64,000 bases of DNA, taken from the NCBI GenBank assembly GCA_017449065.1, contig JAFSKF010000033.1, positions 1 through 64,000 of the forward strand, given 5' to 3'. Positions 21,133 to 36,047 of the stretch are shown one piece after another. Position numbers and translations under genes: made by a program. This DNA comes from Bacteroidales bacterium. Lineage in GTDB: Bacteria; Bacteroidota; Bacteroidia; Bacteroidales; UBA3663. Below the pieces are notes generated by a model, which was not told the origin of the DNA, did no database searches, and worked only from the letters and a program-made list of their open reading frames with translations. How positions within the stretch are numbered: position 1 is the stretch's first letter; the number at the start of each line of letters is the position of its first letter.

Positions 21133-22455
21133 TTAGGACACATAAGCCTTGCGGTTTAATTTGCCGTTGTAGGTCCGTTCTATGTGATCGACTTGTTCGT
21201 ATTGAACAGGAACTTTATAGCTTTCCAGTTTCTGCTTCAAATAAAGGGCAAGGGTTTTCTTGTTCAAAGTATATCCTTCTGCCATTACCACCAAAAGTTT
21301 GGGCACAAAACCCATCAGCGGATGTCGGACAGGAATACAGATACAATCGGCAACACCCTCGACAGCCAGCACCAGTTCTTCGACCTCGGCAGGAGCGACT
21401 TTGAGCCCGCCGACATTGATGATGTCGTTGGTACGACCAATCAGATACAAACGTCCTTGGTCATCCCAACGTCCCATGTCGGACGTGATGATTTCTGCAG
21501 GTCCGTCGGCCGATAAGTTTTCGTCTCCGAGGTAGCCCATCATTTGAGCCTCCCCATGACAAACCACTACCCCATCGCGAAGTTCAACGTGCGCCAGTTT
21601 CATGGGTCTTCCGACACAAGACGGGAACTGATTTCCGTCATTGAAATTGTAAGTGCAAACAACACCCGTTTCGCTCGATGCATAGGTATTGAAGAGCCGG
21701 CTGTCAGGCAACAGACGGCTTAGTTCCTGCATATCGCTCTGTGCGATGGGCGCTGCTCCGGTTTCGAAAAACTCAATGATATCACAGTATGTATGCAAGC
21801 GTTCACCGGAAAACTGCATCAGCATCCGAATGCTGGCAGGCACCAGGAATGTGGCGGCTCTGCCTTTTCCCCGAATAAAATCGAGCGCTTTGAAGAAGTC
21901 TTCCAGATTCTTCATGCTTTCCATCAAGTAGAGCGAAGCGCCTTCTCGGACAATCGGAAGCACCTTCGAGTGGTTTCCGAAATGGTTGATGGGGCCATTG
22001 AGGATAAAAATAATATCGCGGTGAAAGCCCATCGCTTCGGCCAGATTCACAGCATCTGCCACCAACGAACGATCGGACAACACTACGCCTTTGGATGCAC
22101 CAGTGGTTCCTGTGGTAAACAAGATATCGGACGCACCTTCGGGCAAGCAGACCTCTTTCACCTGTGCTTCGACCGATGCCATCTTGTTGGCTGGCAAATC
22201 GTGCTCTAAAGGTGCGATGACGATTCCCAAATACTGACAGGCAAAATACAACACCAAATAGTCTGACGTCTGCGAGGCACGCACACAAAGCACCTGTCCC
22301 CGTGTCCACCCATGGTCCTTGAGTTCTCCTGCTTTTTGCAACACCGACTTCCAAAAATCGGAATATGTGATCTGCTCCCTTCCTGCCTGTTGATAAATAA
22401 ACACCTTATCCGGCAAGTTCTGGGCATGCTGCTGCAAATAATCAACGATTCTCAC
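21133..22455 (-). CDS. Adenylate-forming acyl/aryl ligase (ApeH-like)
   Basis: 440 residues from a GTG at 22455, which overlaps the ACP stop by 14 bases; the longer frame runs back through the ACP gene. The phosphate loop FTTGTTGASKGVVLS (residues 113-127), the hinge-region IGRTNDIINVGGLKVAP and the C-terminal NGKLNRK with the catalytic lysine identify an ANL-superfamily enzyme. It is about 60-100 residues shorter than typical CoA ligases. Aryl-polyene synthases use such a ligase to adenylate an aromatic acid and load it onto the dedicated ACP. The directly upstream ACP (22442-22678) is the obvious partner. Starter specificity cannot be read from sequence. It is the last gene of the operon. 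Confidence 0.85.
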   Translation of the reverse strand: MRIVDYLQQHAQNLPDKVFIYQQAGREQITYSDFWKSVLQKAGELKDHGWTRGQVLCVRASQTSDYLVLYFACQYLGIVIAPLEHDLPANKMASVEAQVKEVCLPEGASDILFTTGTTGASKGVVLSDRSLVADAVNLAEAMGFHRDIIFILNGPINHFGNHSKVLPIVREGASLYLMESMKNLEDFFKALDFIRGKGRAATFLVPASIRMLMQFSGERLHTYCDIIEFFETGAAPIAQSDMQELSRLLPDSRLFNTYASSETGVVCTYNFNDGNQFPSCVGRPMKLAHVELRDGVVVCHGEAQMMGYLGDENLSADGPAEIITSDMGRWDDQGRLYLIGRTNDIINVGGLKVAPAEVEELVLAVEGVADCICIPVRHPLMGFVPKLLVVMAEGYTLNKKTLALYLKQKLESYKVPVQYEQVDHIERTYNGKLNRKAYVS

Positions 22456-22678
22456 CTTTCGCTGCCAATTTCTTTTCAACCAAACATACCAAAGCATCCA
22501 GATTCTGCAGATTCTTCGGGGTAGCATCGCGGGTATCAAGTTCAATATCGAACTCCTCTGACAAAGTCATCAGAATGGTAGTTACACCCAATGAATCAAG
22601 ATCATCATATAGACGATCAGAATCCAGATCGACCAACGGCAGCTGGTCTTCCAGTAATTTATAAATTTTCTGCTTCAT
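22442..22678 (-). CDS. Acyl carrier protein (starter-loading candidate)
   Basis: 78 residues from the ATG at 22678 (MKQKIYKLLED); the frame is open 26 codons further but would overlap the exporter gene. The phosphopantetheine site is Ser29 in DDLDSLGVTTI, placed as in type II ACPs. The stop overlaps the ligase start, which favours stoichiometric co-translation and a ligase-ACP pair for aryl starter loading. It differs clearly from the second ACP at 31580-31831, in which the motif is LGLDSIDALEL. Confidence 0.9.
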   Translation of the reverse strand: MKQKIYKLLEDQLPLVDLDSDRLYDDLDSLGVTTILMTLSEEFDIELDTRDATPKNLQNLDALVCLVEKKLAAKGENR

Positions 22679-22680
22679 AT

Positions 22681-25128
22681 TTATTTGTTTAAATAGTTTC
22701 TGAGCGGTTTGTCGATTTTTATGAGCCAATGGAACAACATGGGAGGAATCAGCCAAGCCATCAGGACGACGACACTCATACCGACGATGGTAACTTCTGC
22801 TAAAGAATGCATGGCAGGATGCTTGGCAAAAATGAGCGAACCGATGCCCACCAGCATAATGGCGGCCGACAAGAGAATGCTACGCTGATAACTTATCAGC
22901 ACCCGATGTCCGCTTCCTTGCTTATAATCCTTCAAAAGTCCTTCGGTGATAAAAATCGTATAGTCATCACCTTGACCGAAAATAAAAGTCGCCAAAATAA
23001 TGTTCACGATATTAAATTGAACACCGAAAATCTGCATCAGCCCCAGAATCCAAATCCATCCGACTGCCATCGGTGTGAATGCCAACAAAGCCAGTTCAAT
23101 GCGTCCGAACGAGATCCAGAGGAAAAGGAATACAATGAAGGCACAGGCGAAGCCGATATAATTGAAATTATCGGTCAACGCATTGGCAATCCGGCTATTG
23201 GTTGAATGCAAATCGAAGGCTCTGCCCTGTTGCAAACGGGCGTTCAAGGTTTCTTCGACCTTCGAAGCAGCTTCCGGATCGGAAACGGTCAGTCGCGCCA
23301 CCATAGCATCCGAACTTGCATAGCCCGTGAGTATCGTCGAAGTCAGCGGATAAAAATCGGTATAGGAAAGAAGCGGATGATCTTCTTCAATCAACAACTG
23401 GAATGGTTCGAAAGCTTCTTCGCTGAAGCCTTGGTTTCTGGATTCAGACAAGAGAGAAAAATAGTCATGCGAACGCCAAAAATCCTTCCAGCATTGCAGA
23501 CGATATTCCTGTTTCGAGCAAGAAGGCAAGAGCAAAGCGGGGTTCACCTGATTTATCAGCAGTTTCTCAGACGATAAACTGTCAAGAACCGGTTGCAATG
23601 ATTCCAATTCTTCGGATGAGGCTGCTACATAAACGACGGTTCCGGAAGTTTGTCCTTGCAGGGCAGCAAGCTGATTCATATCGGAACGCTGCTCTTCTGT
23701 CATATAATTCAAATGCGACACATCACTATCGAACGTGGTGTGCAAGCTCAACCAGCCGAATCCCGCCGTAATCAACAAGAGCGCCAGCATCGTAACTGGA
23801 TGTGTCACCAACCGATCGACAAAGGCATTGGATTTTCCGGATTCCTCCTGTTTCTCGGTCACCTTGACAGAAGTGCCGGATGTACAATGAGGCATCACCA
23901 ACAACACAAACAAGATGGTGCCGACCAACATGAATGCGCTGAAGAGCCCCAGCTGACGAATGGCAACCGCTTCTAACGGAACCAATGTCAGGAATGCGGC
24001 AACGGTGGTGATATTACCGATCAGCAAAGGCTGAACCAAATCGGACAATACCCGCCTGCCACGCTGTTCTGTCGGCAAACCAAGTTCCGTCCGGGAAATA
24101 TGCTGGCTATGACAGATAAAATGCAGAGGATAATTAACCGCAATACCGATAATAACCGATGAAATGCCGATAACAATCAGAGAGAGCTGATTGCCCCAAA
24201 GAGAAAGACCGGCTAAAGCGATCAGGAACCCGAACCCCGTTGACAGCATAATATGCCACAAAGAACGCAGACTTCGGAAAGAACCCAATAACAGGAGGAG
24301 AATCAAAACGACAGAAATCGTCAAAGCCAGAATGGTATCGTGCTGAATCTGTCTGGCGTTGCTTACCGCAATAACAGGAGCTCCAATCAGATGCACATCC
24401 ACATCCGCTCCGACTTCTTCTCCAATCTGTTCGAGCAATTCGACCAAACGTCCGTTCTGATTCGTCTCGCTACTGCCGAACGGACTCTCGACCGTCACCA
24501 GACAACTCTTTCCGTCGGACGTAAGGATATAGCCGTCTTCCTGTCTATAGTTCATTTCCGGCTGGTAATCGCGCAACAGTTCCCCTATCCGATTCCCCAT
24601 TCCCATAGGATCAAGCTGTAAGACAGGCATCAGGAAACTGCCAGTCATACTTCCCAATTGCGTACGAATCCAATCGAAACGCTGGCGAACGTATGCGCTG
24701 TCTTTCAGTAAGGAATCCATCCGCTGATAATCGGATTCATCCAACAAATAGGGCAAGCGACCGTAAACAAACTCTGTCACCTCCTGAATTCTGGTGTAAT
24801 CGACCTGCGGCTCATATTCGGCAATCCAACCAATGGTATCCTTTTGGGCAAGAATTTCTCCGTAGCGTTCAACCGCCGAAATGATGGAATCTTTTCCATT
24901 TTCCGATTTGAACTGAATGACAATCTTATTGGCAGACGCCACTTCCTGATAAATCTTCATCGACTGCCGATAATGTTCATCTACAGGAAGAAAATCAGTA
25001 ATCTCTTCCTTAAACTGCAAACGGGAAGCCAGCAACAAGCATCCGCCTATCAGCAAAGTCAGCAAGACTCCACTCCATCGGCGATGCTGTTGCACCCAAA
25101 CAAATATGTGAAGGAAGAGATGTTCCAT
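22681..25128 (-). CDS. MMPL/RND-superfamily exporter
   Basis: 815 residues. Two similar halves each have one N-terminal membrane helix, a large periplasmic loop and a bundle of five helices. The first bundle is near 262-420 (ILALTISVVLILLLLLGSF, IIGIAVNYPLHFICH) and the second near 670-800 (GFACAFIVFLFLWISFG, FIFGQGDDYTIFITEGLL). The GxxxDY-type segments in the fourth helix of each bundle carry the charged residues expected for proton coupling. Exporters of this family accompany aryl-polyene and flexirubin-type clusters and are thought to move the lipid-linked pigment toward the outer membrane. Two bases separate it from the ACP gene. Confidence 0.88.
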   Translation of the reverse strand: MEHLFLHIFVWVQQHRRWSGVLLTLLIGGCLLLASRLQFKEEITDFLPVDEHYRQSMKIYQEVASANKIVIQFKSENGKDSIISAVERYGEILAQKDTIGWIAEYEPQVDYTRIQEVTEFVYGRLPYLLDESDYQRMDSLLKDSAYVRQRFDWIRTQLGSMTGSFLMPVLQLDPMGMGNRIGELLRDYQPEMNYRQEDGYILTSDGKSCLVTVESPFGSSETNQNGRLVELLEQIGEEVGADVDVHLIGAPVIAVSNARQIQHDTILALTISVVLILLLLLGSFRSLRSLWHIMLSTGFGFLIALAGLSLWGNQLSLIVIGISSVIIGIAVNYPLHFICHSQHISRTELGLPTEQRGRRVLSDLVQPLLIGNITTVAAFLTLVPLEAVAIRQLGLFSAFMLVGTILFVLLVMPHCTSGTSVKVTEKQEESGKSNAFVDRLVTHPVTMLALLLITAGFGWLSLHTTFDSDVSHLNYMTEEQRSDMNQLAALQGQTSGTVVYVAASSEELESLQPVLDSLSSEKLLINQVNPALLLPSCSKQEYRLQCWKDFWRSHDYFSLLSESRNQGFSEEAFEPFQLLIEEDHPLLSYTDFYPLTSTILTGYASSDAMVARLTVSDPEAASKVEETLNARLQQGRAFDLHSTNSRIANALTDNFNYIGFACAFIVFLFLWISFGRIELALLAFTPMAVGWIWILGLMQIFGVQFNIVNIILATFIFGQGDDYTIFITEGLLKDYKQGSGHRVLISYQRSILLSAAIMLVGIGSLIFAKHPAMHSLAEVTIVGMSVVVLMAWLIPPMLFHWLIKIDKPLRNYLNK

Positions 25129-25153
25129 AATATATTACATCATTCTTTACCTA

Positions 25154-26296
25154 TCAGGCATACGCCTTGTTATCGACCGGAGCCGCATAGATTTTCAAGA
25201 ATATTTCTACCAAAGCATCCGTCTCGAAATCCGTTCCCAGGTATTCGGTTGCTTTCGCCAAAAGTTGTGACACCCGAAGTTCAAATGCCTCTTTCTGTTT
25301 ATTGCTATACAACCGATGATAGGTGTTTTGGGCATAAAGTTTGTCGTGGGCAATGTAATTGTTCGGCCACAAACGGAAATGCTCATGAATGCGATGGTCA
25401 ATCAGGTGAGCCACCTGTGCATGATACTCGTTTTGCGTCCGATTGGCAAACGCCATCAGCTCGGAAGGATCAATAGGCGGACAAATCTCGAAGTGAACTC
25501 TTCCCTTCGGTTGCATGATTCCCGTCAGAATACTATTGACATCCTCTCCCGGCTGCTTGATATATTTGCCCTCTTTTTGGGTGCGATACAATTCGAACGC
25601 CTTCAGAAAGTCGCACGATTCCCATTCATACGAAACACTAACCGGAAGAATATGCAATTCAGAAAGCGTTTCAATCTTGTCGTTCGGTCCGCTCATCGAG
25701 AACATTTTGATGATTCCCTGATCGGTACGATCGTCGCCATCCTTGGTTCTGCCATTTCGCTGGGCAATCCAGACGCTCGCATTCTTCTCGGTAATGACGT
25801 GACGGATATATTCAGACAAGTGCATTGACAGCCGATAGAATTCTTTCGGAGTCGCCCCTCTCTCCACTCGGAACATCTTATTCGATTTTCCGATATCGAC
25901 AATCAGTTCTCCCTGCATCAGATTGGCTCCGAAGGTGATTTCTGTCGTATCGAAATGATTCTCGTGCAGAACCGTTTGCAGCAAACTGCTGTCGAGCACG
26001 ATGTCGCGATGATTGCTGACAAAGAGATAAGGTTTGCCCCGTTCAACGCGGTTCAATCCGTCGAAGGTAAATTCGGTAATACTCCGACGAATAACCTCAT
26101 GATTGAAAACATTCATCACGCGGTCCTGAAACTCTTCGATCGTTTTCAAGCCGGCAACCATTTTTCGAACCTCTTCGACATGTTTATCCGGGAAAACAAA
26201 CTCAGACAAAGATGGGAACATCCGGTTGTCGGCTATCCGTTGCATTGCCGCCGGTATTTCCTCTTCGTAATAGGGACGTATATCATCAAAATTCAT
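25154..26296 (-). CDS. PlsC-family acyltransferase
   Basis: 380 residues with a PlsC/LPLAT domain. SNHRDIVLDS (residues 95-103) is the catalytic block; the spacing is HX5D rather than the common HX4D. VERGATPKEFYR and AQRNGRTKDGDDRTDQGI are further family blocks. The N-terminal 85 residues and C-terminal 100 residues are extensions. The enzyme probably transfers an acyl chain to a glycerophosphate or sugar-lipid acceptor. In this operon the pigment itself, or the lipid carrying it, is a likely substrate. It is one of three acyltransferase modules in the cluster. Confidence 0.82.
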   Translation of the reverse strand: MNFDDIRPYYEEEIPAAMQRIADNRMFPSLSEFVFPDKHVEEVRKMVAGLKTIEEFQDRVMNVFNHEVIRRSITEFTFDGLNRVERGKPYLFVSNHRDIVLDSSLLQTVLHENHFDTTEITFGANLMQGELIVDIGKSNKMFRVERGATPKEFYRLSMHLSEYIRHVITEKNASVWIAQRNGRTKDGDDRTDQGIIKMFSMSGPNDKIETLSELHILPVSVSYEWESCDFLKAFELYRTQKEGKYIKQPGEDVNSILTGIMQPKGRVHFEICPPIDPSELMAFANRTQNEYHAQVAHLIDHRIHEHFRLWPNNYIAHDKLYAQNTYHRLYSNKQKEAFELRVSQLLAKATEYLGTDFETDALVEIFLKIYAAPVDNKAYA

Positions 26297-27095
26297 CGTT
26301 CAACCAATTTAAGAATTCTTGTTTCCAACGAATGGCTTCGGCTCCTGCCTTCACCGAATCGGCACCAAATCCGTGTCCGCCAACCTGGTATTGAAGATAA
26401 CGGTGCCTGATACCTTCTGCAGTAAGTGCAGAATCCAGCAACTCGCTGTTATGATAATGCACAATGGGATCGTCGATACAATTCACTAAAAACGTTTTCG
26501 GCATTTTGGGAGTGATATGCTGTTCGAGAGACAAACTGTCGCGCCACTTCCAGCTGTGTTTCCGATATTCGCCCAAGAGCGCACGACGGCTGCGTCGGTG
26601 CACATAAGGCTCCTGACGAAATGTGACCACCGGATATACGGGAACCACAAAATCCGGACGAGCCTCATCTTCGAAAAACGCTCCGGCGGACGCCACCAGA
26701 TGTCCTCCGGCAGAAAAGCCCATCGCACCAATCCGATGCGGATCGATTCCCAGGCTGTCGGCATTTTCCCGCAACCAGAGAATCGCCTGCTTCAAATCCT
26801 GCTGTGCATCCGGATACTGATGCCCGCGAACAACGAAACGATAGCCGGAAGCAAACGAGAAACCTCCTTGCACCCGATAATAAAGCACAAAGGCTGAAAT
26901 ACCCTGACTTTGCAACCATGCGGCCACTTCGTGACCTTCTGTCTGCTTGTCCAACCAGCTGTAGCTTCCGCCCGGACAAACGACGACTGCCGTCTTCCCT
27001 GCCCGATACTCGAACAGGTGTTTCGGCTTTTTCGTTTGAGCCGCAAGAGCGCTCATCAAAAGCACAAACGTCAGCAACGACAACAGTTTCTTCAT
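26286..27095 (-). CDS. Secreted alpha/beta-hydrolase (esterase) in the polyketide operon
   Basis: 269 residues. A signal peptide (MKKLLSLLTFVLLMSALAA) precedes an alpha/beta-hydrolase fold. PGGSY (41-45) is the oxyanion segment, GFSAGGH carries the nucleophile Ser128, NCIDDPIVHYHNS supplies the candidate Asp and VGGHGFG the His. The fold resembles acetyl-xylan-esterase/BD-FAE-type hydrolases. The start overlaps the fusion gene by one base and the end overlaps the PlsC gene by 11 bases, so it belongs to the operon. Being periplasmic, it may hydrolyse an ester on the exported pigment or release it from a carrier. Confidence 0.82.
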   Translation of the reverse strand: MKKLLSLLTFVLLMSALAAQTKKPKHLFEYRAGKTAVVVCPGGSYSWLDKQTEGHEVAAWLQSQGISAFVLYYRVQGGFSFASGYRFVVRGHQYPDAQQDLKQAILWLRENADSLGIDPHRIGAMGFSAGGHLVASAGAFFEDEARPDFVVPVYPVVTFRQEPYVHRRSRRALLGEYRKHSWKWRDSLSLEQHITPKMPKTFLVNCIDDPIVHYHNSELLDSALTAEGIRHRYLQYQVGGHGFGADSVKAGAEAIRWKQEFLNWLNDEF

Positions 27096-28579
27096 CAGAA
27101 TGGTTTTTCGAAATCAATATTCTCGTAATACTTGTGCCAGTACCGGGTCTTTTCACGATAGTTCTCTCCGGTCGATGTATCATCGGCAGAGAAACGCTTT
27201 CCGACATGAATTCTGATCTCTCCCGGATAAATCATTGTCTCCTTTTTGGGGAATACCCGACCGGTACCGTCCAAAAAGACCGGTACCATATCGGCTTTCA
27301 AGGTTTCCGCCAAATAGAATGCCCCGCGCCGGAACTTCAGAATCTTACATGCTGCAGAACGGGTTCCTTCCGGAAAGATTACGATGGAATAACCGCGCTT
27401 CAAAAGACTCTCGATGTGGCCTTCACTGTTTTCCAATCCTTCGGTAGCCGGATAATACTCCAAATATCGGAGAACGGGTTTATAAATCCAAAAATCCCAC
27501 ACCCATTGGTTAGTCATAGCGACCACACGCGGCGACAAGGATAAAACCGACAGCAAATCGAGGTGCGACTGATGGTTGCAGAACAGAATGGACGGTTTGG
27601 CGAACTGCTCCCTGTAAGGATTATCGAGGGTAACCTTTACCCCTGGGATATGGTGCAGGAGGAAACGGAAATAAGCACAGAGAATCTTGTGATATTTCAA
27701 TTTCTGCCGATCTGTTTTCGGCAAGAACCACTTGAAGATAAATACCAAAGGTAGGGGAACAAGCATCGCAGAAACCAGAGCGAAAGTCAAGTCCCAGATG
27801 GTCAGCAATCGCACTCTTAGCGAACGAACCGGCGATGAATGCCAAACCATCGACCACCAGCCATAGCACAAACATAGAATACACAAAACGGTATTCAGCA
27901 AAGAAATGCGCATAAAATCGTGGAAGGGACGGAAATGACTTACCCGTTCTTCTTTGGGGGGATAATAGACACGTATCGGCGTTGAAACGAGTTTCACTCC
28001 GTGCCAAGCCTGAAACACCAACAATTCCAATTCTGCCTCATAGCGGCTGGTCAGGAAACGGGTTCCTCTCAATTTACGCAAAGGATATACACGATAACCG
28101 GTTTGCGTATCGGGCAAATACTGCCAGGTCTGAACCATGAACCAGAAATTCGAGAAGTAGTTGGCAAATGTGCTCTTACCCGCCATATTCTCTTGCACGA
28201 GTTTCCGGTTACCGACAATCAAAGCTCCGGGATGTTTTTGCATCGCATCGGCAAACAACGGCAAATCCTCTGGGTAATGCTGCCCGTCACTATCGATGGT
28301 TATCGCATTCTCAAAGCCCAAGGAAAGAGCCTTCTGGAATCCCTGACGCAAAGCATAGCCTTTTCCCTGATTCTGCGGATAGCTGACAAGAGTAATCGGA
28401 TGCTGATAGTTTTCCAACAGCTGCTGCGTGTTGTCTGTCGATCCGTCGTTGACCACCAGAATATCGTCGGCAAAAGGCTGCAAACGCTCAAGCACCTGTA
28501 TGAGTGTCCCCTGATTGTTGTAAGTGGGAACAATCACACAAGTATGCGTCGCTTTGAAATAGGCCTTGCAATCTGTCAT
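27095..28579 (-). CDS. GT2 glycosyltransferase-PlsC acyltransferase fusion
   Basis: 494 residues. Residues about 10-225 form a GT2 domain of the dolichol-phosphate-mannose-synthase-like kind (CVIVPTYNNQGTLIQVL, ILVVNDGSTDNT, ITIDSDGQHYPED, DTQTGYRVYPL). Two membrane segments follow near 225-245 and 255-285. Residues about 290-494 are a PlsC acyltransferase with CNHQSHLD (HX4D), FPEGTRS and VPVFLDGTGRVFP. GT2-PlsC fusions are found in aryl-polyene clusters and suggest that glycosylation and acylation of the anchor happen on one membrane protein. Both active sites appear intact. Confidence 0.88.
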   Translation of the reverse strand: MTDCKAYFKATHTCVIVPTYNNQGTLIQVLERLQPFADDILVVNDGSTDNTQQLLENYQHPITLVSYPQNQGKGYALRQGFQKALSLGFENAITIDSDGQHYPEDLPLFADAMQKHPGALIVGNRKLVQENMAGKSTFANYFSNFWFMVQTWQYLPDTQTGYRVYPLRKLRGTRFLTSRYEAELELLVFQAWHGVKLVSTPIRVYYPPKEERVSHFRPFHDFMRISLLNTVLCILCLCYGWWSMVWHSSPVRSLRVRLLTIWDLTFALVSAMLVPLPLVFIFKWFLPKTDRQKLKYHKILCAYFRFLLHHIPGVKVTLDNPYREQFAKPSILFCNHQSHLDLLSVLSLSPRVVAMTNQWVWDFWIYKPVLRYLEYYPATEGLENSEGHIESLLKRGYSIVIFPEGTRSAACKILKFRRGAFYLAETLKADMVPVFLDGTGRVFPKKETMIYPGEIRIHVGKRFSADDTSTGENYREKTRYWHKYYENIDFEKPF

Positions 28580-28595
28580 TAACTTGATTCTCTAA

Positions 28596-28967
28596 TTATT
28601 TTTCCGATGCCTTTGAATGCTGACATTCGGCTGTTTCCAACATCATTTTTGCGAAGAGGATTCCCTCCTCTTCAATAACGACGGAGTAGGAATCCTGCGA
28701 CTTACCGATCCGGACGATCAATGCCGGCGTCGCCTGCGGCTGATGGGGTTTCAGGAACTTCACATTCCGCGCGTTCGTCAACTCTTGCGCTGTATCTTCC
28801 GAAAGATTAATTAGTTCCAGTGCCATCTGCATCAGCATCGCACCCGGAGTAATCGGGTATCCCGGGAAATGTGCCTGATAGATCGGATGCTCGGCATTCA
28901 TTCGGACACGATACAACCATTCGCCATTCCCCTCTTGCCTATCGGTTACTTTATAAAACTTCTCCAT
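28596..28967 (-). CDS. Hot-dog dehydratase retaining the His (ApeI-like)
   Basis: 123 residues, a single hot-dog domain. AHFPGYPITPG carries the catalytic His33. Fourteen residues later, where FabZ has its Glu and FabA its Asp, this protein has Gln47. The second dehydratase of the operon (33607-34032) shows the opposite pattern, so the two probably form a heterodimer with one composite active site. It should remove water from beta-hydroxyacyl-ACP intermediates to give conjugated double bonds. Confidence 0.85.
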   Translation of the reverse strand: MEKFYKVTDRQEGNGEWLYRVRMNAEHPIYQAHFPGYPITPGAMLMQMALELINLSEDTAQELTNARNVKFLKPHQPQATPALIVRIGKSQDSYSVVIEEEGILFAKMMLETAECQHSKASEK

Positions 28968-28971
28968 CGCC

Positions 28972-29325
28972 TTACTTCATTGAAACCAACATGCAACCGC
29001 CGATAATCAGACATACGCCAATCCATCCCCAAACTGACACTTTCTCGCCCAAGAGAAGAATAGCGCCCAAGAGACCGAAGATATAGCTCAGGCTATTGAG
29101 CGGATAGGCCTGACTCAACGGATAGTGTTTGATGATCCATAGCCACAAAAGGCCAGCACTCCCGAAACTAAGACCGAAAAGGAAAAGCGGACCATTCAGC
29201 AATATACTCTTGAAATAGGACCAATTCCAGCCGAATGCACCTATGCTATGCGTGGACATTTTCAGAAAAATCTGACCTAAAGCCAGCAGCATCGACTGTA
29301 ACAAACACAAGAGGAATAGTTTCAT
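28972..29325 (-). CDS. Small four-helix transporter (SMR/EamA-like)
   Basis: 117 residues with four membrane helices at roughly 3-22, 45-65, 74-92 and 97-115. The LGQIFLKMSTHSIG opening and YPLNSLSYIFGLLGAILLLGE helix match half-size drug/metabolite transporters. Relatives in lipid A modification (ArnE/ArnF-like) flip undecaprenyl-linked sugars. Its place inside the pigment operon suggests movement of a lipid-linked intermediate; dimerisation would be needed. Confidence 0.75.
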   Translation of the reverse strand: MKLFLLCLLQSMLLALGQIFLKMSTHSIGAFGWNWSYFKSILLNGPLFLFGLSFGSAGLLWLWIIKHYPLSQAYPLNSLSYIFGLLGAILLLGEKVSVWGWIGVCLIIGGCMLVSMK

Positions 29326-29334
29326 ATTCTCAAA

Positions 29335-30315
29335 TTAACGTTTTAACAAAACAAGAGCGGCATCTCCGGCTCTGTCGAGCGTCAGTAACAAAGCGTTGTT
29401 CTCTTTGCCCAAATGAATATACTCGGCAGCGGCATAAAAACCTAATGCCGAAGCAGAGAAACACTCGCCGAACCAGCGCTTATACGGGATGGTGGCCTTC
29501 CCAGGGAGAATGGCAGGTAGCAACTCAGCATACAAAGCGTCATTGGCGGGATGTCCGTTTTCTCCGCTGAACACCACCAGATCTTCCGGCAATTGCATAG
29601 AGGCAATGACCGTCTGCCATTGTTCCCGCGTTGGCCGATGCAATAATTTCACACTCACCAACTCGCACAACGGGGAATTTGCGAAAGTCTGGTCTTCGGT
29701 TCGCAACAACGCAGCCATAGCAGCTTCGCCACAGGTTCCCTGCATTCCGTTACCCACATAATCTGCCAATTCCAGCAATCGGAAATAATTAGGAGTGGTA
29801 CCATCGTGTCCACCCACTAAGGCATTCCCAATTTCGCCAGCTTTCAGTTGCAGCCAGGCATCGTACAGAGCACTTTCGAAACTGATTTGTTTGTGACTAT
29901 AAGTTGCATTATACCCATGACATTGGGTTTGGATAGCGACTAAGGAACCGATGGTGTTGTGCGTCGATTGCATGAAATGGGTCGGCTTCAGCAACTGTTC
30001 TCCGTTCTGGCACATATCGAGCAAGAAGGCTTCTGTGCTCTCGACACTTCCTAAGCCCGTTCCTGTAATGACTGCCTCCGGTTTTTCAAGCTGACAATCG
30101 CGCAACGTCTGCAAAGAAACAGCCAAAGCTCTTTTCAGGATCTTCCCCATGCGACGGCCTTCCACTGGAGAAACGTATGGTTTGAAGTCCGGATCGATGC
30201 TGCGGCAGAACGGTTCGCTATAAACAATCGGATGCTCCACCCAATCATTGCACAAAGGCTGTTGGATGGAAATCTGGTTTGCTGCCTGAACAAAAATCTT
30301 TCTCATAGTCGCCAT
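29335..30315 (-). CDS. Ketosynthase-like chain length factor (Cys replaced by Gln, ApeC-like)
   Basis: 326 residues from the ATG at 30315 (MATMRKIFVQ). A KS fold is visible (ITGTGLGSVEST, the GNALVGGHDG segment and GECFSASALG in the third block). In an ungapped alignment to the adjacent KS, the nucleophilic Cys164 corresponds to Gln143 here, the substitution that defines chain length factors of type II polyketide synthases. The flanking stop and start are separated by one base from the KS gene, so the two are coupled and should form a KS-CLF heterodimer setting polyene length. Confidence 0.85.
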   Translation of the reverse strand: MATMRKIFVQAANQISIQQPLCNDWVEHPIVYSEPFCRSIDPDFKPYVSPVEGRRMGKILKRALAVSLQTLRDCQLEKPEAVITGTGLGSVESTEAFLLDMCQNGEQLLKPTHFMQSTHNTIGSLVAIQTQCHGYNATYSHKQISFESALYDAWLQLKAGEIGNALVGGHDGTTPNYFRLLELADYVGNGMQGTCGEAAMAALLRTEDQTFANSPLCELVSVKLLHRPTREQWQTVIASMQLPEDLVVFSGENGHPANDALYAELLPAILPGKATIPYKRWFGECFSASALGFYAAAEYIHLGKENNALLLTLDRAGDAALVLLKR

Positions 30316-30316
30316 T

Positions 30317-31546
30317 TTACAACTCCAAAAGAATTGAACTGTCGTTACCGCCAAAACCGAAGGCATTGCACAACACCCGATGAACCGGTTGCTGCAGATG
30401 CTGAGTTGTCGCTGTAACAGGAACATTCACTGCAGACACATTTTCTTCATCGCAAATCGGGGAAACAAAATGCAGGTTGACCGGCAGGAACTGGTTTTGC
30501 AACGCCAAAAGACAGAATACGGCTTCGATGCTTCCGGAGGCACTGGTGGTATGTCCCGTGAAGCCCTTCGTACTCGAAAAAGGAGGCAAAATATTGCCGA
30601 ACAAACGGTGCATCGCCTTCAGCTCGCTGGGATCGTTATTAGGGGTTCCTGTTCCGTGACAGTTGATATAGTCGATATCCAAAGGTTGCAGATTCGCTTT
30701 CTCCAAAGCCTGTTGCATAGCCAGATAGGCCCCAATTCCGTCTGGAGAAGAAGCCGTCTGATGAAAAGCATCGCAGGCATTGCCATAACCGGACAACACG
30801 CCCAGCACTTTGGCACCACGTTCTTGGGCCGATGCTTCGGATTCCATTACCAGATAAGCCGCCCCTTCTCCAAGATTCAATCCGGCGCGCGTCGCATCCA
30901 TAGGACGGCAAGGCTCGCGGTCGAGAATCATCAAGGTATTAAACCCGTTCAAATGAAACTTCGACAAACACTCTGCTCCACCGACCACCACCCGTTCGTA
31001 TTCTCCGGATGCAATCATGCGTGCGCCTAAGATGATGGCATTAGCGGCCGATGAACAAGCGGTTGACAAACTGGTAGTCATACCAAACCGACCGAAGTAG
31101 TCGGCAATCATATCCGTACTTGAACCGCAATCGTGACTTTTAATGTAAGCAACCGGTGCATTCGGTTCCACCGGTTCTTTCAGAAAATCCAAATAGAATT
31201 GTTCGCTCTTATCCATTCCCCCCACGGTGGTTCCGTTGATGAAAGCCATTTGCGACAAGTCTTCCTGTCCCAATCCGGCTTCCTGCAAAGCCTCCTTCAG
31301 CGCCATCATCCCCAAAAGGGAGGTCCGAACAACGGGTGTTGTGCCTGGGATTCCCAACCGATCCATCATTTCTTCGTTGGTCAGTTTGACCTCCCCGACC
31401 ATACATTCCGTATGTTCAGTTTGAAGGTAGCGAACGGGAGCAACACCTTCGGCACACGACTGAAGGCTCCGCAGGTTTTCTTCTTTCCCTACGCCGATAG
31501 CCGAAATCACTCCAGCACCCGTTATGACAATTCTATTTTTCTGCAT
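30317..31546 (-). CDS. Beta-ketoacyl-ACP synthase (FabF-type KS, ApeO-like)
   Basis: 409 residues with a complete thiolase-fold active site: Cys164 (STACSSA), His297 (NCHGTGT) and His332 (GFTGHTTSASGS). It condenses malonyl-ACP with the growing chain. The downstream gene encodes its CLF-like partner, one base away. It differs from housekeeping FabF in the operon setting and in a divergent first block (MVGEVKLTNEEMMDRLG). Confidence 0.92.
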   Translation of the reverse strand: MQKNRIVITGAGVISAIGVGKEENLRSLQSCAEGVAPVRYLQTEHTECMVGEVKLTNEEMMDRLGIPGTTPVVRTSLLGMMALKEALQEAGLGQEDLSQMAFINGTTVGGMDKSEQFYLDFLKEPVEPNAPVAYIKSHDCGSSTDMIADYFGRFGMTTSLSTACSSAANAIILGARMIASGEYERVVVGGAECLSKFHLNGFNTLMILDREPCRPMDATRAGLNLGEGAAYLVMESEASAQERGAKVLGVLSGYGNACDAFHQTASSPDGIGAYLAMQQALEKANLQPLDIDYINCHGTGTPNNDPSELKAMHRLFGNILPPFSSTKGFTGHTTSASGSIEAVFCLLALQNQFLPVNLHFVSPICDEENVSAVNVPVTATTQHLQQPVHRVLCNAFGFGGNDSSILLEL

Positions 31547-31579
31547 ATTCTACCTGTTTGGCGATGCAAGATTTTTGAC

Positions 31580-31831
31580 TTATTTTGTACGATGTGCATC
31601 GATATAGGCAGCCATGCAGTTGATCGACTTGAATATCTCCTTGCCTTCCGCCGGATTCTGCAACTTGATGCCATAAAATTTTTCCATCAGAACGATCAGT
31701 TCCAATGCATCGATGGAATCAAGTCCCAAGCCCTCACCGAAAAGAGGTGCTTCATTATCGATATCATCGGGCTGCATGTCTTCCAGATTCAACGCATCGA
31801 TGATCTGTTCTTTCAATTTGTTTACATCCAT
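31580..31831 (-). CDS. Acyl carrier protein (chain-extension candidate)
   Basis: 83 residues; Ser39 in GLGLDSIDALEL is the phosphopantetheine site. It lies between the two full ketosynthase genes, which suggests it carries malonyl and extension intermediates while the second ACP next to the ligase handles the aryl starter. Confidence 0.92.
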   Translation of the reverse strand: MDVNKLKEQIIDALNLEDMQPDDIDNEAPLFGEGLGLDSIDALELIVLMEKFYGIKLQNPAEGKEIFKSINCMAAYIDAHRTK

Positions 31832-31854
31832 AGTTACTCAATTTAATATTTTTT

Positions 31855-31942
31855 CTAACTGACAAAAATTTTTTCTCTAACTGGGGAAAAATATTTCCCC
31901 CACTGGGCCGCAAATTTTCCCTAACTGGAGCGTAAAAATCAT
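31855..31942 (+). repeat. Four 22-bp tandem units inside the polyketide operon
   Basis: Units start at 31855, 31877, 31899 and 31921, each 22 bases and beginning CTAACTG or CCCACTGGG followed by an A/T-rich tail. The last unit runs into the end of the neighbouring KS gene. The second and third units match 6574-6531 on the minus strand at 35 of 42 aligned bases. They fill most of the 107-base gap between the ACP and KS genes, the largest gap in the operon. Confidence 0.75.
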
Positions 31943-33579
31943 TCTTTCCGATATAGCCTCAAATCGGCTTCGAAATGCTGCTCGTCTTCATACTCCAGCC
32001 AACCTGCCAAAACCGATTGGATTCCGTCATCCTGAAACGAGGAAGCGATAATCTGTTGCATCGTGGCTTCATCGGGTTCTTCGAGAATGAAGCATGAGGT
32101 TTCGCCATAATAAGCATTCCTCAATGCCAATTCGCCCGTAACGATATTCGACAACGTATAGACGAAAATGGCAGGACTCGGGAAATAATTGTCCGGATCG
32201 CTTATGGTCTCCATATAAGCCTTATCGTCGGCCATCGAACCGCTTCGGGTGAAGATAACGATGGCCCGATCTTCTCTCGGTTCGAAACGCGTTACCCCCG
32301 ATTGCTCTGCCTCCTCCTGCAACAACAGTTCCGATGCCAGGAATCCCAACTTACAAAGCGGATCCATTTTGAAGAATTTCGGATAGTCGCCCCAAACCGC
32401 TTTATGCTGCCGATAGAAGGATGTCAGCCCTTGCGGCATATTGGAGGGATTCAAGGAAACCTGAAATGCAGACGAAAGATTGCCAGGCTCGTTCTCCAAA
32501 GAAATGTTGTCAACGACTGAAGATTTCGTGTACCACAATGCTGCATTGCATCCGCCAAAGCCGGACATAAGCTTCAATACATCCGTATTCCGTGGCTTTT
32601 CTTCGCCATGCGTCACATGGATCTGATGTCGGGTGCCCGATTCCTCAAAACCTTTCGTTGCCGGAATCCAACCCTCTTCCATTGCATGTAAGGCTATGAT
32701 GCTTTCCAGAATGCCGGCAGCTCCCATAGTATGACCGAAATAACCTTTCAAACTAAAAGTCGGCAGTTCCGAAAATCCGGATCGGTCGATTGCCGCTGCT
32801 TCCATTTCATCGTTGTAAAGTGTGGCGGTTCCGTGAGCGGAGATGCACCCCGGAACATCTTCTTCGCGACAAATCTGCCGCATAGCGCGATAACTGCCTT
32901 CACCCGTCTTCGAGGGATTTGAAATGTGAACAGCATCGTTGCGGATGGCACCCGATTTCAGCTTCCAATCTGCTGGAGCCGGATTCGTTTGTTTCATCAG
33001 GATTATCGAAGCGGCTGCTTCGCCCAAATTCAGACCGCAACGATCGCCATCGAACGGCCGGCAAGGATCGGGCGACAAAGCCTTGAACGATTGGAATCCG
33101 CTGACAATGAACTTCGACTGAATATCCATTCCGGCCACAACGGCCACACGATAATGTCCGGCATTGAGCAAGCGCATCGCCAGAATCTGAGCCGACAAAC
33201 CGCTGATGCAGGCATTCGAGACGACAATCGGACGATTTGGATTCCCGAAATGATCGGCCACACGTTGTGCCGATATGCCGATACGCTCGAAGTCCATTAC
33301 GTTTCCTTTGGTACTCGACAGGATGAAAACCACTTCCTGAGAAGCCGGATGTATGGTTACTCCCTTCTGCTGAGCTTCCTCGAGAGATGCCTCAATCGTT
33401 CTTATCAGACCTTCCTCGAATCTCATCGGAACCTCAAACAGCGAAGCTACAAAAGCGTCAGGCATTCCTTCATGCCGATGCTCTGTCAAAGCCGAACGGC
33501 CTTGACGCACCGCACTCAGATTCTGAGCGGTTGTAACTCCCAATGGAGAGATGATGTTATCCGAAAGAAGGGTTATCAT
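31939..33579 (-). CDS. Ketosynthase with an extra degenerate KS-like C-terminal domain (ApeR-like)
   Basis: 546 residues against about 410 for a normal KS. Residues 1-355 are a full KS with Cys124 (NACISGLSA), His249 (SAHGTATLYND) and His283 (GYFGHTMGAAG). Residues about 375-546 form a second segment (FFKMDPLCKLGFLASELLLQ, AIVIFTRSGSMADDKAYM, SPAIFVYTLSNIVTGELALR) that resembles the first half of another KS without the nucleophile region. In aryl-polyene synthases a second KS handles initiation with the aryl starter or an early elongation. The role of the appended half-domain is unknown; it could be a dimerisation or gatekeeping module. Confidence 0.85.
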   Translation of the reverse strand: MITLLSDNIISPLGVTTAQNLSAVRQGRSALTEHRHEGMPDAFVASLFEVPMRFEEGLIRTIEASLEEAQQKGVTIHPASQEVVFILSSTKGNVMDFERIGISAQRVADHFGNPNRPIVVSNACISGLSAQILAMRLLNAGHYRVAVVAGMDIQSKFIVSGFQSFKALSPDPCRPFDGDRCGLNLGEAAASIILMKQTNPAPADWKLKSGAIRNDAVHISNPSKTGEGSYRAMRQICREEDVPGCISAHGTATLYNDEMEAAAIDRSGFSELPTFSLKGYFGHTMGAAGILESIIALHAMEEGWIPATKGFEESGTRHQIHVTHGEEKPRNTDVLKLMSGFGGCNAALWYTKSSVVDNISLENEPGNLSSAFQVSLNPSNMPQGLTSFYRQHKAVWGDYPKFFKMDPLCKLGFLASELLLQEEAEQSGVTRFEPREDRAIVIFTRSGSMADDKAYMETISDPDNYFPSPAIFVYTLSNIVTGELALRNAYYGETSCFILEEPDEATMQQIIASSFQDDGIQSVLAGWLEYEDEQHFEADLRLYRKE

Positions 33580-33606
33580 ACTTATATCCTATAGTTTTCT
33601 TGTTGC

Positions 33607-34032
33607 TTATAATGCCGTTTTCATCCGTCCTTGCGCCAACACATTTCCTGCTGCATCATAAACGTAGGCTTTGAACGATGTAATACCGAATGCTTCGGCT
33701 TCGACCTCTATGCGGGTCCTAATCTTCTCTGAAACCGAAGGCGTTCGGAAAACGCTGAACGATTGGATGGCTCCCACATAACCGATCTGAACAGGTTGCT
33801 TCAGGACATATTTGTAATAGTAACCGATTCGTGCCGCACTGGTTTGAGCTATATTCTCGACCAATCCGCAGGCAGAAAAACGTCCGTCCTCGCACATCAT
33901 ATTATCAGCTTTGATTTCGAATTCGGTTTCTGCATAGTTATCCTGATACGTCACCAGTTTGCCTATCATTACAAACGGCGGACGCTGGGGCAACAATTCC
34001 AATATGTCAATATCTCTAAGATTCATTTCCAT
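33607..34032 (-). CDS. Hot-dog dehydratase retaining the Glu but lacking the His (ApeP-like)
   Basis: 141 residues from the ATG at 34032 (MEMNLRDIDILEL). LLPQRPPFVMIGKL is the FabZ-type opening. The helix GLVENIAQTSAA keeps the catalytic Glu59, but the upstream HFPG loop is replaced by MMCEDGRFSACG and no histidine is present at the active position (Met45). Paired with the His-bearing dehydratase at 28596-28967 it can complete one active site, as FabZ sites are formed across the dimer interface. Confidence 0.82.
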   Translation of the reverse strand: MEMNLRDIDILELLPQRPPFVMIGKLVTYQDNYAETEFEIKADNMMCEDGRFSACGLVENIAQTSAARIGYYYKYVLKQPVQIGYVGAIQSFSVFRTPSVSEKIRTRIEVEAEAFGITSFKAYVYDAAGNVLAQGRMKTAL

Positions 34033-34058
34033 CTTCTCCCGTTCCTTCCGGCAAGGAT

Positions 34059-34949
34059 TCAATCCTCCCAAAATTCAAAATAGTTGAACCACTGTGTAGG
34101 ATAAAGTCTGACTATCGATTCCATCTCGCGGGCAAAATCATCGGCCAATTGCTGAGCCTGTTCTTTCTTGCCCAAACTTTCGTCTGCTTCCAGAAAGCGG
34201 AAATAAATCTTGTAAGTGTCCCATCGCTCTTTCATGACGAAGATTGCGACCATCGGAACCTCTCGGAGCAATGCCAGTTGGAAAGGTCCGAACGGCAGCT
34301 TGACCGAATGATCCATGAAGGAACTTTTCAAGGACTTTACGGAACCGAAAATCCGATCGCCCGGCATGCTGACAATCTGTCCGTCGCGCAAGGCGTTGTT
34401 CAGTTCGAAAATATGACTCATATCCGACTTGACAGGCACCATTTCCACGCCCTTGGCGGAAAACATTTTCCGACGGTTCTCCATCACAGTTTCCGTTTCG
34501 CCCCAAAAGACCAAAGCATATATTTTCTTTATCTCCTGTTTCAGAATGTAGCCGGCCAATTCGTAGTTGCCCATGTGACTGCTCAATTGGACGAACCCAC
34601 CATCCTCGCGAGCCAATGCTTGGTACTTCTCCTTGCCTTCTGAAAACTCGAACTTGAATGTCCGTCCACCAAAAGCGGCAAAACGATCGACGATGATCTG
34701 CCCGAAACGGAAATGATTGGCATAGACATGAGCAAAAGCCTTCCACCATGATTCTTGAAAACCATCCCGAAAGAAATGATACATCGAAATGTATCCTTTA
34801 TGGTTGAACAGCATGTAGAAAGGCACAACAAGACACAGCACACCATAGATAATGCGCTGATCGACGATTGCCAGCAAACGGATAAGTGTCCTTTGCATCC
34901 AAGGCATTCCTCCCGTCGTTCCCTTCCAGTTTTCGTGCTCTAAAGCCAT
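34059..34949 (-). CDS. LpxL/HtrB-like lysophospholipid acyltransferase
   Basis: 296 residues. One N-terminal membrane segment (about 28-52, VDQRIIYGVLCLVVPFYMLF) and an LPLAT domain with QLSSHMGNYELAG (HX4E catalytic pair), then PGDRIFGSVKSLKSSF. The family transfers acyl groups from ACP to lipid A or related acceptors. Within an aryl-polyene-type operon it may transfer the finished polyene from ACP to a membrane lipid or sugar. The lipid A acyltransferase proper is probably encoded elsewhere. Confidence 0.85.
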   Translation of the reverse strand: MALEHENWKGTTGGMPWMQRTLIRLLAIVDQRIIYGVLCLVVPFYMLFNHKGYISMYHFFRDGFQESWWKAFAHVYANHFRFGQIIVDRFAAFGGRTFKFEFSEGKEKYQALAREDGGFVQLSSHMGNYELAGYILKQEIKKIYALVFWGETETVMENRRKMFSAKGVEMVPVKSDMSHIFELNNALRDGQIVSMPGDRIFGSVKSLKSSFMDHSVKLPFGPFQLALLREVPMVAIFVMKERWDTYKIYFRFLEADESLGKKEQAQQLADDFAREMESIVRLYPTQWFNYFEFWED

Positions 34950-34952
34950 ACG

Positions 34953-36047
34953 TTACTTTTTGCAGACAAGGATACTATGCCCATGACCCAAATGGTCGTG
35001 AATCTCATCAATATGTAAGCCGGCCGCCTTGATGCAGGTTTCCATATCTTCTGTATTGTACATCTTGCTGTTTCCGTTGGCGATATCGGTGAAATAAACA
35101 CTCGTCATCGTCAGACAGAGAGCCGATGTTTCGTATTTCTGCCGATCCCACAGGGTTTCCATGATGCACAACCGGCTTTCTCCATCCATGATGCGGGCAG
35201 CACGACTCAAAATGGAAATGATTTCGTCCATACTGAAACAATCCAGGAACTGGCTCATCCAGAGGATATCATAATGACGATCTGTAGGGAATGCGTTGGC
35301 CGGATCAAGCAGATTCATACCGTATCCGCTAATCCGATCTGCTCCCGGTTTTCCTTGTGTCTGCTTTCTCATCATTTCAAGCTGCTGTGGCAAATCCACA
35401 ATCGTCACTTCGACCTTCGGATCGAAGTTCACACATTGCATCGCCCATTTGCCGGTGTTTCCTCCCACATCTAACAAAGTTCGGGGATGATAGCCAAAAA
35501 CCACCTGCAAGGCTGACGGGAAGGACGCATCGCTGTAAAAGTGATCGAAGTCGAACCAGCTCTTTTGAACTTGTGCGGGAAGTTGTGACAAACCTTCGTA
35601 AACCGTTGGCCACGAACCGAAATGCGACAAACCGGCAGGCTTCCCCTCTTTCAGGGCTTCTTCCAAACGGAACAAGCCTTCGTAGTTCACATCCTGATTG
35701 AAATTCATATTGACGCGAGTAGAGGCATCGGTCAGCAAAAACCAACCTGCCTTCGACAGGCTGTAGCGGTCTGTTTGAGGATTGACCAGCACCGTTCCGA
35801 TAGACAAAGAACCTTCCAGCAGCACTTTGACGGCATAGTCGCTCAAACTCGTCTTTTCCACCAGTTCTGCTCGGGTCAATCCCTCATTGCTGTCACGCAA
35901 CAAATCCAGTATTCCGAACTTAACCATGAGACGGGACACCTGAAAAACCATCGGTCCCCAAGCAATGAACTGAGCCAAGCGTTGCGCTTCGGGCGCCGAC
36001 ATCTTCTCTTGGGTATATCTTTCTTCCAGTGCAGGTGATAAATGCAT
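34953..36047 (-). CDS. SAM-dependent methyltransferase (O-methyltransferase fold with N-terminal winged helix)
   Basis: 364 residues. Residues about 30-120 form a winged-helix dimerisation domain (MVKFGILDLLRDSNEGLTRAEL). Residues 175-364 hold the Rossmann domain with motif I LLDVGGNTGKWAMQ and EVTIVDLPQQLEMM. The layout is that of small-molecule O-methyltransferases such as hydroxyneurosporene or caffeate methylases. Methylation of the aryl head group, common in aryl polyenes, is the likely role. It is the first gene of the operon, just behind a consensus promoter. Confidence 0.87.
   Translation of the reverse strand: MHLSPALEERYTQEKMSAPEAQRLAQFIAWGPMVFQVSRLMVKFGILDLLRDSNEGLTRAELVEKTSLSDYAVKVLLEGSLSIGTVLVNPQTDRYSLSKAGWFLLTDASTRVNMNFNQDVNYEGLFRLEEALKEGKPAGLSHFGSWPTVYEGLSQLPAQVQKSWFDFDHFYSDASFPSALQVVFGYHPRTLLDVGGNTGKWAMQCVNFDPKVEVTIVDLPQQLEMMRKQTQGKPGADRISGYGMNLLDPANAFPTDRHYDILWMSQFLDCFSMDEIISILSRAARIMDGESRLCIMETLWDRQKYETSALCLTMTSVYFTDIANGNSKMYNTEDMETCIKAAGLHIDEIHDHLGHGHSILVCKK

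Follow-up and report, generated by a model that had tools for sequence, protein, structure and literature searches.

The window analysed here, a 64,000-nucleotide stretch of a Bacteroidales genome, encodes two small proteins, DH1 and DH2, that very probably form a heterodimeric 3-hydroxyacyl-ACP dehydratase resembling ApeI:ApeP, with one composite active site. That this site would combine a His from DH1 with a Glu from DH2, as the first-pass annotation of this DNA had proposed, is strongly supported by the complementary conservation of the two residues, the perfect co-occurrence of the two proteins and their resemblance to ApeI:ApeP; that the heterodimer forms, what each residue does in catalysis and what the pathway makes are what we infer. 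In our model, the pathway would make a type II aryl-polyene/flexirubin-like polyketide: a ketosynthase and its chain-length-factor partner would elongate the chain, ketoreduction would come next, and DH1:DH2 would then dehydrate, extending the conjugated polyene in each round. The single working site would be built from DH1 His33, in the HFPGxPITPG loop, and from two central-helix residues of DH2, Glu59 and Gln63; the mirror-image site would be dead because DH2 lacks a His and the acid/amide pair of DH1 is inverted (Gln47, Glu51). The features discussed below are collected in Table 1.

Table 1. Putative genes and active-site codons of the dehydratase cluster, in window coordinates.
Feature	Position	Strand	Basis or remark
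AMP-ligase, ACP, MMPL exporter, acyltransferase, alpha/beta hydrolase, glycosyltransferase-acyltransferase	21133-28579	minus	
DH1, hot-dog dehydratase subunit, ApeI-like	28596-28967	minus	ORF, profile match, predicted fold
DH1 Glu51 codon, FabZ Gln (+4) position	28815-28817	minus	conservation across relatives
DH1 Gln47 codon, FabZ Glu position	28827-28829	minus	sequence and conservation
DH1 His33 codon	28869-28871	minus	sequence; loop HFPGYPITPG
Small EamA-type membrane protein	28972-29325	minus	
Chain-length-factor-like ketosynthase	29335-30306	minus	Gln at active-site Cys position
Elongating ketosynthase	30317-31546	minus	active-site Cys, STACSS
Acyl carrier protein	31580-31831	minus	above NF006617/PRK09184 cut-off
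Second ketosynthase, C-terminal extension	31939-33579	minus	Cys, SNACIS
DH2, hot-dog dehydratase subunit, ApeP-like action	33607-34032	minus	Glu59 with Gln63 (ENIAQ)
DH2 Glu59 codon	33856-33858	minus	sequence; Glu in 44/44 of phylum sample
DH2 Met45 codon, FabZ His position	33898-33900	minus	sequence; never His among relatives
LpxL-type acyltransferase	34059-34949	minus	
O-methyltransferase	34953-36047	minus	

Active-site residues, predicted folds and family assignment

Our reading of the two ORFs confirmed the coordinates and residues given by the first-pass annotation: in DH1 (123 aa), His33 and Gln47 lie exactly 14 residues apart (YQAHFPGYPITPGAMLMQMALELI), and in DH2 (141 aa), Met45 lies exactly 14 residues before Glu59 (ADNMMCEDGRFSACGLVENIAQTSAARIGYY). 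The window genome's own FabZ, part of an LpxC-FabZ fusion, has its His and Glu at the same distance (HFPEEPVMPGVLQVE), and this fusion and eight further FabZ domains all show HFP followed by Glu at +14 and Gln at +18, which confirms the 14-residue yardstick. Homodimeric FabZ carries His and Glu on the same chain; neither DH1 nor DH2 does. DH1 has the catalytic-type His within the HFxxxPxxPG loop that marks ApeI-like proteins, but the acid that these carry at +14 (Asp in 6qsr_A and 3esi_A) is absent and Gln47 stands in its place. In DH2, as expected for an ApeP-like protein, the central helix bears the Glu and the residue at -14 is not His. The true start of DH2 is likely to be 34026, two codons after 34032, a choice favoured by the starts of orthologues and by the spacing to a ribosome site, GGGAG; with that start, Glu59 may be residue 57.

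The complementary half-sites described by the first-pass annotation hold up as a conserved His/Glu split, but DH1 is not acid-free: the annotation overlooked Glu51, which is conserved. It follows Gln47 by one turn of the helix, at a place that FabZ fills with Gln, so that the central-helix motif of DH1 is inverted (Q47-MAL-E51, versus E-xxx-Q in FabZ and DH2). Because this acid is only one turn away from the expected place, the annotation's further claim that DH1 is inactive alone is likely rather than certain.

AlphaFold2 predictions of the single chains, made with alignments of 61 (DH1) and 60 (DH2) sequences, gave confident hot-dog folds for both (pLDDT 92.6 and pTM 0.85 for DH1; pLDDT 95.6 and pTM 0.90 for DH2). 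In the DH1 model, His33 ends the helix formed by residues 28-33 and Gln47 and Glu51 both lie within helix 42-57; in the DH2 model, Glu59 lies within helix 54-76 and Met45 is in no helix. Foldseek matched the DH1 model to FabZ and FabA, and the DH2 model to FabZ and to the ApeP chain 6qsr_B (TM 0.80, E 9.6e-10), although many FabZ structures score equally well and the match is therefore not specific.

Searches of Pfam and NCBIfam with the single DH1 and DH2 sequences returned only sub-threshold FabA/FabZ matches, and we therefore built family profiles for both. The best solved relative of the DH1 profile was the ApeI chain 6qsr_A (E=2e-9), which ranked third, after 3esi_A, when a larger alignment was used. 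Of 61 DH1 family members, 31 match the ApeI-like family PF22818 with an E of 0.01 or lower (the best 1.4e-6); the window's own DH1 gave no match to it. The ApeP-like family PF22817 had no match in the window genome or among the 60 DH2 family members. With DH1 under the one cut-off and DH2 unmatched by the other model, neither protein is assigned to those families.

Conservation and co-occurrence of the two half-sites

We compared relatives in three sets: the genus (15 genomes), loci from a contig scan, and an even 297-genome sample of the phylum, which was searched by profile, free of any pattern, with E below 1e-20 counted as a strong match. Strong matches to DH1 and DH2 fell in exactly the same 26 of the 297 genomes (hypergeometric 6e-38). 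Shared cluster membership could by itself explain this co-occurrence, and it is the complementarity of the residues that provides the specific evidence. In agreement with the split seen in the window, the DH1s of the phylum sample have His in 26/26, Gln at +14 in 26/26 and Glu51 in 25/26, and the 44 DH2s, which include tandem copies, have Glu in 44/44 and I, L, V or M, never His, at -14. The pattern is beyond chance; genomes within one sample are related, and these counts are therefore not independent events.

Among the 70 Bacteroidales DH1s encoded together with a DH2 at one locus, the window's included, His is found in all 70; the residue at +14 is more varied (Q 61, K 5, E 2, R 1, S 1), and Glu is present at position 51 in 62, with the full Q-xxx-E order in 55. 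In the sequences compared, Glu51 is thus less strictly conserved than His33. DH2 has its Glu in 81/81 of the contig-scan loci, partly by construction, as the pattern used for that scan, E[NH]IAQT, contains the residue; our claim that the Glu is invariant therefore rests on the pattern-free genome searches. Within the genus, DH1 has His in 13/13, with Q 9, S 2, E 1 and D 1 at +14, and DH2 has Glu in 14/14 and no His at -14. Both residues of the DH2 E-xxx-Q motif are invariant across the sets examined.

The natural variants bear on which subunit supplies the acid. Five Bacteroidales DH1s (L073, L085, L090, L092, L118) have no acid at position 47 or 51, and the DH2 in the same locus keeps its Glu in each case; a DH1 from another class of the phylum (L194) is likewise acid-free, with a Glu-bearing DH2 (L164) in the same genome. 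Acid-free DH1s beside Glu-bearing DH2s favour DH2 as the acid donor. The possibility that DH1 and DH2 are degenerate relics was considered and rejected, because their half-sites are strictly conserved across the phylum.

One genus member (L061, L037) has a DH1 with Glu/Gln at positions 47/51, the canonical FabZ order, and an unchanged DH2.

The gene cluster, a second locus and alternative explanations

The window genome comprises 3.15 Mb in 55 contigs and is 87% complete; its nearest relatives in a named collection were for the most part metagenome assemblies of Bacteroidales, many of ruminant origin. The cluster spans about 21133-36047, with every gene on the minus strand, and brings together ketosynthase, chain length factor, ACP, acyltransferase, methyltransferase, AMP-ligase and MMPL exporter genes; judged from these gene identities, it has the composition of an aryl-polyene/flexirubin type II PKS. 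In chain length factors, Gln often takes the place of the active-site Cys, and this replacement in the window's chain-length-factor-like ketosynthase parallels that of the acid by Gln in DH1, which the cluster also encodes.

A different genome within the order holds a complete cluster (L200) of similar gene order, with one copy each of DH1 and DH2; each of the two profiles has a single match in that genome. L200 also contains sequences that, named by reading them, resemble thioesterase, ketoreductase and aromatic ammonia-lyase. The last family has no match in the 87%-complete window genome, so the window cluster may use a different starter unit from that of L200, or the ammonia-lyase gene may have been lost to incompleteness. 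Ketoreductase and thioesterase genes were not among the window cluster genes examined; FabG-like and thioesterase-like genes are found at a second locus of the same genome (L033:2519-10970, contig C1), together with LolA-like, exporter-like and ketosynthase genes. This locus appears to be aryl-polyene-like, its FabG-like gene being ketoreductase-like, and it bears two overlapping dehydratase genes, DH1B and DH2B. In DH1B, which falls just under the PF22818 cut-off, His and Glu47 are both retained (10/10 in the genus); DH2B keeps the Glu and has Phe or Tyr in place of the His (15/15 in the genus). As only one subunit of this pair has lost a residue, DH1B/DH2B may represent an earlier stage of the same division.

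Several of these observations weigh against a strictly heterodimeric reading: Glu51 of DH1 is conserved and could in principle serve a homodimer, two of the 70 Bacteroidales DH1s have Glu47, DH1B has both His and Glu, and DH2 lies outside the curated ApeP models. An active DH1 homodimer that uses Glu51 as its acid, with DH2 as an accessory or stabilising protein, would fit the conservation of Glu51 in both the Bacteroidales and phylum sets and the genus member with the canonical Glu/Gln order. Such a homodimer would leave the six natural DH1s with no acid at either position unexplained, however, and an accessory DH2 would need no invariant E-xxx-Q, so we consider it unlikely.

The second locus suggests a different alternative, in which dehydration is carried out by DH1B/DH2B or by the housekeeping FabZ and the window's pair serves some other purpose or is a relic: DH1B, with its His and Glu, adjoins DH2B in a locus that also has the ketoreductase-like and thioesterase-like genes. 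This appears quite improbable, as the complete cluster L200 has no B-type pair, most phylum-sample genomes with an A-type pair like the window's show no second DH1 of B-type strength, and the half-sites of the A-type pair are strictly conserved, unlike those of a relic. The co-presence of both loci across the genus would also allow mixed heterodimers across loci, such as DH1:DH2B or DH2:DH1B, but relatives outside the genus appear to hold the A-type pair only, which makes mixed pairing hardly credible. A DH1:DH2 heterodimer with its acid supplied by DH2 remains our preferred explanation.

Comparison with known dehydratases

The closest parallel to the proposed heterodimer is ApeI/ApeP of Acinetobacter baumannii, heterodimeric dehydratases with a single active site (PMC8041823); with that mechanism already described, a composite site in DH1:DH2 would be known in kind. 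The structure 6QSR is described in the structure library as the ApeI:ApeP dehydratase heterocomplex of Xenorhabdus doucetiae. Like ApeI:ApeP, DH1 and DH2 are two hot-dog subunits from one cluster, with the His on the ApeI-like chain and the Glu on an ApeP-like chain that has no His at the matching place, and by analogy the pair would work in the same way. The FabZ +14 yardstick used by the first-pass annotation stands. ApeI has its own Asp at the position of Gln47, in a D-xxx-H rather than a Q-xxx-E motif (the aligned segments of 6qsr_A and 3esi_A are HFPVQPLLPGVAQIDWV and HFTGQPLLPGVAQLDWV). Since ApeI still has both residues and the Bacteroidota DH1 does not, the Bacteroidota pair would be a stricter variant.

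FabZ and FabA share with DH1/DH2 the hot-dog fold, the HFPGxPxxPG loop and the central helix with an acid 14 residues on; FabZ differs in being a homodimer in which each chain has His and Glu, where DH1 and DH2 have one apiece. HadAB and HadBC of mycobacteria are, like the proposed DH1:DH2, heterodimeric hot-dog dehydratases of type II chain extension, but the whole catalytic pair is in HadB, whereas in DH1/DH2 it would be shared by both chains. The flexirubin cluster of Chitinophaga pinensis, also from the Bacteroidota and of comparable composition, has two dehydratase genes as well: in the portions of PMC3992019 drawn on here, FlxF and FlxS are assigned as putative dehydratases only, with no mention of a heterodimer, and we liken them to DH1 and DH2 by description rather than by sequence.

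Flexirubin and aryl-polyene pigments are widespread, yet the curated ApeI/ApeP models miss the dehydratases of Bacteroidota clusters or only just detect them. The residue split points to two proteins that would need to be co-expressed if the dehydration step is to be reconstituted. At the level of sequence, the novelty lies in how strictly the residues are split and in the phylum-wide inversion to Q-xxx-E. One tentative and rather doubtful scenario is that an ancient, phylum-wide change from acid-xxx-Gln to Gln-xxx-Glu in DH1 silenced the mirror site and made the heterodimer obligate, parallel to the Cys-to-Gln change of chain length factors, and that Glu51 gained a new structural or catalytic role absent from FabZ and ApeI. 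The conserved inversion offers a clear-cut way to test the route from a symmetric homodimeric enzyme to an obligate asymmetric one.

Many genomes outside the order (L144-L149, L151-L160, L162, L163) have a tandem of two DH2-like genes, each encoding the Glu but not the His, alongside one strong DH1 match; in these, a single His subunit may be shared by two Glu subunits.
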